Shown in pieces: positions 52,066 to 63,672 of a DNA stretch of 64,000 bases. The stretch comes from Halorientalis salina (GTDB lineage Archaea; Halobacteriota; Halobacteria; Halobacteriales; Haloarculaceae). The stretch covers positions 62,001 through 126,000 of the forward strand of contig NZ_SOSC01000005.1 in the NCBI RefSeq assembly GCF_005049285.1, read 5' to 3'. Position 1 is the stretch's first letter. Each line of letters opens with the position of its first letter. The translations under genes and the position numbers were made by a program. The notes below the pieces were generated by a model. The model searched no databases and was not told the origin of the DNA. It was given only the letters and a program-made list of their open reading frames with translations.

Positions 52066-52608
52066 CTACCGTCGGTCGTCGTCGCCCTGGCCCGACGATC
52101 CGTCGTCCGGGCCGATGTCGTAGGCGTCCTCATCCATCTCGTAGGTGTCGCCGCCGGTGTTCTGGCCCTGGCCCTGCCCGGGCGTCTCGCCGCCGGGGAA
52201 GCCGCCGACGTAGACGTTTCCAGACGCGAAACCCTGCGTTTTGGCGTCGATGTAGGGGTTGACGACCCACTTTTTCGTCGCGACGCGGACGGGGATGCGG
52301 GTCAGCGGGACCACGAGGAGCAAGCCGATGAGGTCCGTGACGAGCCCGGGCGTCAGCAACATCGCGCCCGAAACCAGCAGGAGGCCACCGTCGACGAGTT
52401 CGTCGGTCGGGGACTCGCCCTGGGCGACCTTGCGCTGTATCTTCTGGAGGGTGTGGCGGCCCTCGGCGCGGACCAGCAGCATGCCGACCAGTGCGGTCAG
52501 GACGACGATGAGCACCGTCTCGACTGCGCCGAGCCACCCTGCCACCGCCACGAGCAGCATGACGTCGAACAGCGGGATGAGCAACAACAGCGCGATGATG
52601 CGCAGCAT
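52066..52608 (-). CDS. FxsA family membrane protein
   Basis: 180 residues from ATG 52608. FxsA proteins are inner-membrane proteins of uncertain role (in E. coli linked to phage exclusion). Here the N-terminus MLRIIALLLLIPLFDVMLLV, GAVETVLIVVLTALVGMLLVRAEG and LLLVSGAMLLTPGLVTDLIGLLLVVP are the conserved FxsA segments, with about four helices. A Gly/Gln/Asp-rich tail follows. Its upstream side carries a cluster of hairpin repeats. Confidence 0.9.
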   Translation of the reverse strand: MLRIIALLLLIPLFDVMLLVAVAGWLGAVETVLIVVLTALVGMLLVRAEGRHTLQKIQRKVAQGESPTDELVDGGLLLVSGAMLLTPGLVTDLIGLLLVVPLTRIPVRVATKKWVVNPYIDAKTQGFASGNVYVGGFPGGETPGQGQGQNTGGDTYEMDEDAYDIGPDDGSSGQGDDDRR

Positions 52609-52668
52609 ACACTCCTCTATCGGCCCGACACTCAAAATAGAACCGCTTGGCAACCACTTTTTTACTGC

Positions 52669-52906
52669 GGGGGGTCGCCTGTGGCGACCCCCCATTGCAA
52701 AAACCTGGACTAAAAACGGCTCCAGACTCGCTACGCTCGTCTGGAGTGAACCGCCTCGCGCCTGCGGCGCTCGGCGGATGCTCACCTGCTCAATAGCTCA
52801 AACCACCGAACAGTAGCGGGCAAGCATCCGCGCGACCGAAGGGAGCGCGGTTCACGCGAGCGGCTTGCCGCTCGCGCCTTTTTCACCCATGTTTTTCAAG
52901 GAGCGG
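52669..52906. repeat. Hairpin repeat cluster: two facing units with a TGAACC...ATGCT core
   Basis: An 11-bp stem (52669-52694) is followed by unit A on the plus strand (stem ctccagac/gtctggag, then tgaacc and a stem of ccgcc..gcgcc with tc/tc mismatch, ending ggatgct, 52721-52783). Unit B is its inverse on the minus strand (52823-52906), with a perfect 10-bp stem cgcgagcggc/gccgctcgcg and a second stem with the same kind of mismatch. A third unit lies at 63535-63672. Confidence 0.75.
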
Positions 52907-52981
52907 TTCGCGACCAGCGGGAGCGAACCCGACGCAGAAAAAGATGGTGGGATATTTGGGTGGTGACCGCCACGCTCCGGT

Positions 52982-54613
52982 ATGGACGATTCGGCGGCGG
53001 ACACCAAAGTCGAGTGGCGAGAGTGGGGGCCCGAGGCCTTCGAGGCGGCGTCCCGCAGCGGCAAACCGGTCCTGCTCTCGCTGTCGGCCCCGTGGTGCGC
53101 CCACTGTCACGAGATGGACGCAACCACCTACTCGGAGCCGCGCATCGCGGCCAACATCAACGACGGGTTCGTCCCCGTTCGCGTCGACGTCGACCGGCAC
53201 CCCCGCGTGCGCGAACGCTACAACATGGGCGGGTTCCCCTCGACTGTCTTCTGTACGCCCGAGGGGGACATCATCACGGGCGCGGGCTACCTGGGGATCG
53301 ACGGGTTCCGCGACATCCTCGACTCCGTCCGCCAGACCTGGGACGCCAAGGGAACCGAAGCGGGCCGGGTTCCCCGTGCGCTCCGGGACGGGACGCCACC
53401 GGGCGGCGAGCTCACCCCGCGCATCGAGGAGCACATGGTCGAACAGCTCCTGGCGGCCTTCGACGAGGAGTTCGGCGGGTGGGGTACCGACACGAAGTTC
53501 CCCCTGCCTCGAACCGTCGAGTTCGCGCTGGTCCGGGCGCGCGATCAGGCCACCCGGACGCTGGAGGCCATCCGGACGCACCTGCTGGACACCTACGAGG
53601 GCGGGTTCTACCGCTACGCGACCGAGCGCAGCTGGGGGTCGCCCAGCCGGGAGAAGCTGCTGGACGAGAACGCGGCCCTCGTCCGCGCGTTCGCTCGCGC
53701 CTACCGGTACACCGGCGAGGAAGCCTACCGCCAGCCGGCCGAACAGACCGTCGAGTACCTGACGACGACGCTCTGGACCGGTGCGGCCTTCGCGGCGAGT
53801 CAGGCCGGTGACGACCAGTACTCCCACCTCGAACCGACCGAACGCGAGGACGCCGACGCGCCCCCCGTCGACGAGACGGTGCTGGCCGACCGCAACGGAC
53901 TGGCCGCAGAGGCGCTGCTTTCCCTCCACGCCTACACCGACGACGAGCAGGCCAGGCGGTACGCCGAGCGCGCGCTCGATCACGTCCTGACCGAACTCGT
54001 CGACGACGGGGAAGTCATCCACTTTGCCGACCCCGAAACCGGCGAGGTCGGCGAGTCCGGGCTCCTGCTCGACCAGGCCCGCGTGCTGGCCGGACTGACC
54101 ACGGCCTGGCAGGTCACCGGCGAGTACAGCGAGGAGGCTCGTGAGATCGCGGACTACACGCTCACGCAGCACCGCCCCGAGGACGACGGCGCGTTCCGCG
54201 ACGGGCCGGCCGAGGGCGCTGGGCTCTGCGACCAGCCGCTGTATCCGCTGGACACGAACGTCGAACTCGCGGACGCGCTGGTTGACCTCGCGGCGCTGAC
54301 CGGCGAGGAACGCTACCGCGAAGCGGCCCGCGACGCCGTCGCGGCGTTTGCGGGTGCGTTAGATCGCATGGGCGTCGAGGTCGCCGGCTACGCGAGCGTC
54401 TCGGCGCGGCTCCAGTCGCCGCGGACCTTCCGGGTGGGAACGGCGGCGGGCAGCGACCTCCACCGGGCGGCGCTGCGCATCGCCGACCACGAGGCCGTCG
54501 TCGTCCCCGACGCCGACGTGCCCGACGGGGAAGTCCACCTCTTCCAAGACGACGAACAGGTCGGGACTGCGGACACGCCCGACGCGCTGGCGGACCTGGC
54601 GACCGACGCCTGA
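52982..54613 (+). CDS. Thioredoxin-fold DUF255/YyaL-type protein
   Basis: 543 residues. N-terminal thioredoxin-like domain (about 1-120) with the active-site CAHC at residues 39-42 and cis-Pro GGFPSTVF, then an (alpha/alpha)6-barrel-like helical region (about 150-540: FDEEFGGWGTDTKFPLP, GGFYRYATERSWGSPS, NGLAAEALLSLHAYT). This is the widespread DUF255 spermatogenesis-associated protein 20 family, somewhat shorter than usual. The function is unknown, perhaps redox-linked sugar metabolism. Confidence 0.88.
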   Translation: MDDSAADTKVEWREWGPEAFEAASRSGKPVLLSLSAPWCAHCHEMDATTYSEPRIAANINDGFVPVRVDVDRHPRVRERYNMGGFPSTVFCTPEGDIITGAGYLGIDGFRDILDSVRQTWDAKGTEAGRVPRALRDGTPPGGELTPRIEEHMVEQLLAAFDEEFGGWGTDTKFPLPRTVEFALVRARDQATRTLEAIRTHLLDTYEGGFYRYATERSWGSPSREKLLDENAALVRAFARAYRYTGEEAYRQPAEQTVEYLTTTLWTGAAFAASQAGDDQYSHLEPTEREDADAPPVDETVLADRNGLAAEALLSLHAYTDDEQARRYAERALDHVLTELVDDGEVIHFADPETGEVGESGLLLDQARVLAGLTTAWQVTGEYSEEAREIADYTLTQHRPEDDGAFRDGPAEGAGLCDQPLYPLDTNVELADALVDLAALTGEERYREAARDAVAAFAGALDRMGVEVAGYASVSARLQSPRTFRVGTAAGSDLHRAALRIADHEAVVVPDADVPDGEVHLFQDDEQVGTADTPDALADLATDA

Positions 54614-63534: not shown

Positions 63535-63672
63535 CCGCTCCTTGAAAAACGTGGTCTCCGTGAGCCGTAGGCGAACGGAGGCTCGGAAGACGCGTCGCGT
63601 CTTCCGGTGGCGAAAAAGACGCGAGCGACAGAGTCGCTCGCGTGAACCGCGCGCCTGCGGCGCGCGGATGCT
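63535..63672 (-). repeat. Hairpin repeat unit C (TGAACC...ATGCT core) with nested hairpins
   Basis: Starts ccgctccttgaaaaac as in unit B and ends tgaacc, stem ccgcgcgcc/ggcgcgcgg (loop tgc), atgct. The first stem is cgcgagcgac/gtcgctcgcg (loop aga, 63620-63642). Compared with unit B it carries an extra 55 or so bases (63556-63605) with stems ctccgt/acggag and ggaagacgcg/cgcgtcttcc. It lies just 3' of mptA. Confidence 0.75.

Follow-up and report, generated by a model that had tools for sequence, protein, structure and literature searches.

Structured repeats at gene boundaries of halophilic archaea as candidate mobile two-way terminators

Units A, B and C, three hairpin-rich repeats in a 64,000-nucleotide stretch of Halorientalis salina DNA (the window, by which we mean the whole stretch analyzed), are best explained, with a probability of about 60%, as non-autonomous structured repeats that were inserted at gene boundaries and have been tolerated or kept there as bidirectional terminators or insulators. 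They belong to an apparently undescribed hairpin family of short structured DNA elements in salt-loving archaea; the literature on haloarchaeal REP-like repeats, loop sequences and Halorientalis palindromes held no description of it, which is weak evidence because open-access papers alone were covered. Gene calls were made with a codon model for which the window served as training sequence, and work on the whole genome (3.66 Mb, 23 contigs) was based on patterns, a covariance model and selected stretches.

The facing pair in the window and the plan of the unit

Unit A (52654-52782, + strand) consists of an outer stem, a hairpin named hp0, two A5 runs, a second hairpin (hp1), TGAA, a third hairpin (hp2) and ATGCT. 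Its outer stem P1 (52654-52703, +), in which CCAC and T6 pair with A5 and CCTGG, encloses hp0 (52669-52693, +), and the T6 itself (52658-52663) is a terminator-like run on the + strand. The linker that follows (52699-52716, assigned to the - strand; G000:C19:114699-114716) is AAAAA-CCTGGACT-AAAAA, which reads TTTTTAGTCCAGGTTTTT on the - strand and places two T5 runs 3' of hp2 and hp1. Then come hp1 (52720-52746, +), composed of CTCCAGAC-TC-GC-TAC-GC-TC-GTCTGGAG with a TC/TC mismatch inside, and the TGAA, hp2 and ATGCT segment (52747-52782, +), whose hp2 (52751-52777) also has a TC/TC mismatch. A 40-bp spacer (52783-52822) separates the facing ATGCT ends of A and of unit B, an inverted copy (52823-52947, - strand) with the outer stem CCATC-T5/A5-CATGG, its ATGCT end at 52823-52827, hp2 at 52828-52850, hp1 at 52855-52876 and hp0 at 52905-52929; TTTTTCACCCATGTTTTT (52879-52896, +) provides two T5C runs 3' of hp2/hp1 of B, pointing at the downstream DUF255 gene. 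The core of unit C (63620-63672, +; hp1, TGAA, hp2 and ATGCT) is preceded by an inserted hairpin domain at about 63540-63619, and the unit is truncated, without the 5' part of the outer stem and without hp0. TGAACC starts at 52747 (+) in A, 52854 (-) in B and 63643 (+) in C.

The first-pass annotation had described A and B as inverse copies with C some 11 kb away, sharing constant TGAACC and ATGCT motifs and variable stems that stay paired around a conserved 2-base mismatch. All of this was confirmed: A and B face each other, both motifs are invariant, the two units have different but still paired hp1 and hp2 sequences, and the mismatch, which is TC/TC in both of these hairpins in A and in B's hp2, recurs throughout the family. 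The limits given for the A/B feature (52669-52906) enclosed real hairpins but were too narrow, since the conserved unit also has hp0, the outer stem CCAC-TTTTT/AAAAA-xTGG and the second A-run, so that A and B together occupy about 52654-52947. This larger unit, the T-runs on both strands and the duplicated gene ends had not been foreseen.

The whole facing pair (~294 bp, 52654-52947) is a lineage-specific gain between two promoters, those of a leftward FxsA-like membrane protein gene (52070-52608, -) and a rightward gene for a DUF255/YyaL-like thioredoxin-domain protein (52982-54613, +), both named from their translations. Six relatives with the same divergent fxsA/DUF255 gene pair lack the units, and their spacer at this place is about 40 bp long. 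No gene-end duplication is visible at the window pair, which sits between divergent genes. The covariance model's hits in the window were precisely A, B and C (E = 1.6e-13, 6.6e-8 and 3.9e-10, respectively; next match E 0.16), with bit scores of 64.8 for A (52720-52782) and 50.4 for C.

Copies printed with their flanks shared the plan CCAYc-TTTTT-[hp0]-AAAAA-CxTGG-xxx-AAAAA-xG-[hp1]-TGAA-CC[hp2]GG-ATGCT, with a unit length of ~90-180 bp and T5 runs on both strands of complete units. In the outer stem, CCAC is the partner of GTGG and the T-run that of the A-run; variants include CCA/TGG, CTAAA/TTTAG, GTA/TAC, CGA/TCG and GCAC/GTGC. It was complementary in 94 of 95 units, in at least five sequence classes, as parsed by a procedure that took the best-fitting T-run, and when left arms of the rarer classes were matched with partner strands from other classes, 208 of 2149 combinations fitted. 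Some units have additional hairpin domains, placed between the two A-runs or 5' of hp1, and many have no hp2 (of the genome's 33 T5/T5 core sites, 21 were absent from the hp2 lists when compared by coordinates). A whole-unit pattern with a strict spacer had no matches because hp2 varies in length, and the P1/hp0 module did not form a separate abundant repeat within the window. In a check for terminal inverted repeats of the kind that copies of a classical MITE or SMR share, facing pairs ended in CCAYC-T5/A5-GRTGG and the two ends of single units were unlike.

Several additional features were observed. Many units have, 3' of ATGCT, a further weak motif, GGTNNTCAGTACAG or CTCACTGTGT(C)TGCG, which recurs within facing pairs (for example, L035 7042, L040 3081 and L091 3081). 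Three facing pairs of this genome (L006 1533-2122, L035 7042-7533 and L040 3081-3498) contain in their AT-rich interior a small, membrane-protein-like ORF of ~65 aa, which is unrelated between pairs. Two loci 3' of SRP RNA, L286 (G006) and L284 (G000), hold compact remnants resembling a facing pair minus its middle, in which the outer stems of two units, one of them inverted, are joined. A large cargo transposon was rejected for the facing pairs read in this genome, which enclose 32 to ~600 bp and at times one small ORF; no transposase was recognized among these ORFs.

Distribution, position relative to genes and predicted termination

The pattern TGAACC-N(8-34)-GGATGCT had 38 exact matches in the genome and none in the reversed control, and the core hp1-TGAA-hp2-ATGCT was present in ~40 copies. 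The outcome that the first-pass annotation had named as refuting, few further copies without an excess of compensated changes, clearly did not occur: pattern and covariance-model searches returned 38-40 copies, and compensated changes were in excess. The covariance model had matches in 68 of 97 genomes, including 51 of 57 from the same family and 17 of the 40 others; among the named hosts are Halorientalis, Halosimplex, Halomicrobium, Haloarcula, Halovenus, Natronomonas and Salinibaculum.

The expectation that units occur mostly at gene ends also held. Almost all placed units in six genomes (131 of 133) were extragenic; the hp0 side adjoined a gene end in 92 of the 131 and a gene start in about 30%. 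On the hp0 side, TGAACC and the gene end were a median 125 bp apart, and ATGCT was frequently 3-10 bp off the stop codon of a convergent gene. Orientation was biased in gaps between co-directional genes (51:22), and hp2-less units lay downstream of a gene end by 24:5, a count that includes within-array repeats. Units also occurred directly 3' of tRNA genes in other genera, and one was located 3' of SRP RNA in four Halorientalis species. Behind tRNA genes of other genera (L294, L300 and L306), we observed chains of units with a tRNA 3' end fragment after each, and near those tRNAs a GAAGCCGCAG...GACCGTCTTC-like domain that is also an inserted domain in Halorientalis units L087 and L088.

Judging from its sequence, the unit probably acts as a transcription stop signal in both directions, and we propose that units are tolerated or kept at gene boundaries because they work in this way. 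Insertion would occur at or beside gene boundaries, above all at 3' ends. Read in the sense of the gene on the ATGCT/hp1 side, the order would be stop codon, optional hp2, hp1, CTTTTTCGCCCACGTTTTT, hp0 and AAAAAGGTGG, so that its polymerase would meet GC-rich hairpins and then two T5 runs; a polymerase from the opposite side would meet the T5 run in the outer stem. RNA of the ATGCT-side gene would then end at the first T5 after hp1, and that of the hp0-side gene at CCACCTTTTTC. In the window, the facing pair between divergent promoters would insulate both genes. The T5C motif gave 95% termination in Haloferax volcanii in vivo (PMC7237163), and T5C-type runs shortly downstream of genes, the sequence mark of a terminator, are present in the units; by this analogy we infer termination activity. 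Several observations count against this explanation: a sizeable share of hp0 sides adjoin a gene start, the window pair sits between divergent genes and shows no duplication, most hp2 units have no gene-end copy, inserted domains are of mixed strand polarity, and the stems turn over faster than a simple conserved terminator needs. No mobilizing enzyme for the units was found.

Stem pairing, strand preference and stem turnover

Pairing was analyzed in 19 aligned copies. Paired cells made up 89.5% of 399 (64.6 in shuffles), 96 pair cells were altered on both sides (mean 33 in shuffles), the covariation score was 0.608 (0.155 in shuffles), and structures slid along the alignment paired in 28-46% of cells. 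One-sided changes numbered 0 among the 399 cells, a value favored by the choice of rows, which were picked because their lengths were equal and their stems good. Three of five covariation measures exceeded all shuffles, under a control that leaves relatedness in. Covariation alone is no proof of a functional RNA.

Mismatches and loops suggested which strand folds. TC/TC accounted for 59 of 77 internal hp2 mismatches, and among two-base internal mismatches the ratio of TC/TC to GA/GA was 46:0 in hp2 and 45:2 in hp1. On the opposite, gene-sense strand, TC/TC is a tandem G.A mismatch, and the hairpin loops, mostly C(TNC)G, become GNA triloops. Tandem G.A mismatches and GNA triloops stabilize single-strand hairpins, and the strand that carries them has the sense of the gene located upstream on the ATGCT side. 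RNA folding of A gave z -7.2 on the - strand and z -5.6 on the + strand; for B, the + strand (gene sense) gave z -4.4 and the other strand z -2.4. Single hp2 mismatches read on the + strand (15 A.C, 2 G.T) also favored the - strand; single hp1 mismatches were mixed (12 to 9), and inserted domains had mixed polarity, both kinds being present. Since mismatches and loops are strand-specific, a single strand probably folds, and this is most probably the nascent transcript at a terminator.

Such a strand might instead be DNA, as in REP/REPIN-like elements: an HUH Y1 transposase (TnpA_REP or IS200/IS605 type) would mobilize the units in trans, its substrate would be folded ssDNA with tandem G.A mismatches, and termination would be a side effect. 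The facing pairs are indeed REPIN-like, the stems are strand-specific and mismatched, wobble changes are nearly absent, as fits DNA pairing, and Y1 genes are present in most of the 14 genomes tested. However, two genomes with at least 15 (G005) and 27 (G009) units have 0 Y1 genes, the flanks of 30 Y1 loci contained no unit, and Y1 elements leave no target duplication, yet some units have on their far side 25-83 bp duplicated from the 3' end of the host gene itself. We therefore consider this origin unlikely.

Stem turnover was followed by comparison between species. Of 103 sites, 24 were shared, with flanks mostly 70-94% identical, a rate that is a lower bound as the relatives' units were selected for containing the motif. 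At orthologous sites, stem similarity was 0.553 for hp1 and 0.722 for hp2, compared with 0.532 and 0.647 for random pairs. In nuoI, the duplication starts at residues 126, 128 and 129 of three species (within four codons), and this near-identical start makes it probable that the insertion is old; the nuoI units of these species have wholly different stems. A shared site with unlike stems implies that whole hairpins were replaced rather than stepwise mutated, or that sites were hit repeatedly. Outer arms of hp1, CCGGACG and CTCCGCG among them, reappear at unrelated sites in five genomes, and behind SRP RNA of G002 and G005 hp1 is identical and hp0 unrelated, both of which fit exchange among copies; the stems may thus be renewed by recombination among copies. 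Slow divergence by point mutation from a common ancestor was rejected, given the dissimilar stems at orthologous sites and the absence of one-sided changes. Here structure appears to be kept as sequence is swapped wholesale, a case that stepwise compensatory mutation does not describe.

The same observations bear on a functional structured RNA family (3'UTR or small RNA) dispersed by duplication with its fold under selection, which would be in line with the strong covariation, the strand preference, the conserved unpaired linkers and the modular domains. RNAs evolving through G.U should show one-sided changes, yet none was seen; orthologous-site stems differ as much as random copies, T-runs come before much of the structure in either direction, and Rfam matches above threshold were limited to tRNA, both in the window and in five loci. 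A regulatory RNA is therefore unsupported, in view of the lack of an Rfam match to the units, the missing one-sided changes and the wholesale stem replacement, and we regard it as quite improbable. The annotation had left open a structured RNA or a REP-like mobile unit, and it is the latter that is well supported: the units are dispersed, extragenic and palindromic, were gained in a single lineage at the A/B site of the window, and elsewhere are flanked by direct repeats of host sequence.

Gene-end duplications and known systems

Direct repeats of gene 3' ends with a score of at least 12 accompanied 7 of 94 hp2 units, compared with 2 of 600 mismatched pairings; 87 of the 94 had no gene-end copy, and such copies were commoner beside hp2-less units than beside hp2 units. 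The gene-end copies include 30 bp of nuoI in H. marina, 37 bp of a tRNA in G003 and 25 bp at a tRNA-like end in this genome. Among hp2-less units, an identical 83-bp copy behind nuoI of this genome (L341) is followed by a second unit and shorter copies, and identical copies of 53 bp and 37 bp were present at L331 and L333; nuoI of G002 and of G004 had neither unit nor copy. Tandem arrays were found in G001, G002, G004 and G006, at loci chosen for close spacing in the core pattern. At four loci (L325, L327, L329 and L333), the gene now has a stop or tail unlike the one in the displaced copy, as would be expected if insertion rewrote the gene end, and the gene-end duplications may well have been created by insertion. 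Two arrays showed further peculiarities. At L326 (G004), an inner duplicated gene end is closer to the G002 ortholog than to its own gene, which suggests that gene end and unit were acquired between species; at L327 (G006), the array gene is seemingly truncated by insertion, and the displaced copy runs on to a longer C-terminus.

The layout of new gene end, unit and displaced old gene end, often in tRNA genes, resembles integration into 3' ends, and the units could be attachment-site scars of larger elements that site-specific recombinases placed in gene or tRNA 3' ends, every integration bringing a new gene end and terminator. However, each genome has dozens of unrelated host genes, the duplications range in length between 25 and 83 bp, and neither an integrase nor a large element was seen in the arrays, which makes such scars a doubtful source. 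Amplification of local, immobile terminators by slipped replication, with ectopic gene conversion homogenizing the linkers, would suit the tandem arrays of unit and gene end and the displaced fragment, which matches the gene of its own species, but is very unlikely, as the same linkers at unrelated genes of several genera need dispersal and the A/B gain is lineage-specific.

Returning to inserted terminators, we tentatively propose, with less than even confidence, that they form a class of ~100-bp mobile units which enter the last codons of genes, produce long and variable (25-83 bp) target duplications, rewrite the tail and stop codon, bring a two-way terminator and then swap whole hairpins so quickly that units at one orthologous site have a common architecture but different stem sequences. 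We know of no short-repeat transposase that such duplications match; if the proposal is true, they suggest target-primed or template-switching insertion instead. If inserted terminators are the right explanation, a spreading repeat provides part of the terminators in these archaea, comparable to the way insertion sequences sometimes provide promoters, and the history of insertion is traceable, since it leaves readable copies of gene 3' ends.

Among known systems, BOX elements of Streptococcus pneumoniae are modular short stem-loop repeats with optional internal modules, mobilized in trans if at all; they share the modular design of the units and differ in sequence and host, and to our knowledge have no outer T/A stem or gene-end duplication. 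Bacterial REP/BIME/REPIN sequences (TnpA_REP-associated) are likewise short, extragenic, palindromic and dispersed, often at gene 3' ends, as single copies or facing pairs, with variable stems under constant tags. The units, too, are short extragenic palindromes in many copies; unlike REPs, they have at least three hairpins, an outer stem, T/A runs and gene-end duplications, and no linked Y1 (RAYT) gene, whereas REPs usually flank the dedicated transposase gene of their genome. Bacterial REP superfamilies carry the tag GTAG or CGTC at one end, whereas the tags of the units are TGAACC and ATGCT (PMC3733652).

Haloarchaeal PATEs (palindrome-associated elements) are also non-coding, palindromic and heterogeneous with conserved terminal oligonucleotides, but originate from IS605 ends and insert without target duplication (PMC3119063); the units, judged by proximity to Y1 loci and by flanking copies, show no IS605 link and do show gene-end copies. 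The small mobile repeats (SMRs) of Haloquadratum have a comparable size (about 110 bp) and, like the units, are not known to be moved by a particular enzyme; copies of one SMR type share >95% identity, and the targets of SMR-A are other mobile elements (PMC3119063), whereas the stems of the units are highly diverse and their hosts are gene ends. Finally, haloarchaeal intrinsic terminators resemble the units in having T5C soon after genes, some with preceding hairpins (PMC7237163); ordinary terminators of this kind are local sequences, whereas the units are copies of one dispersed element.
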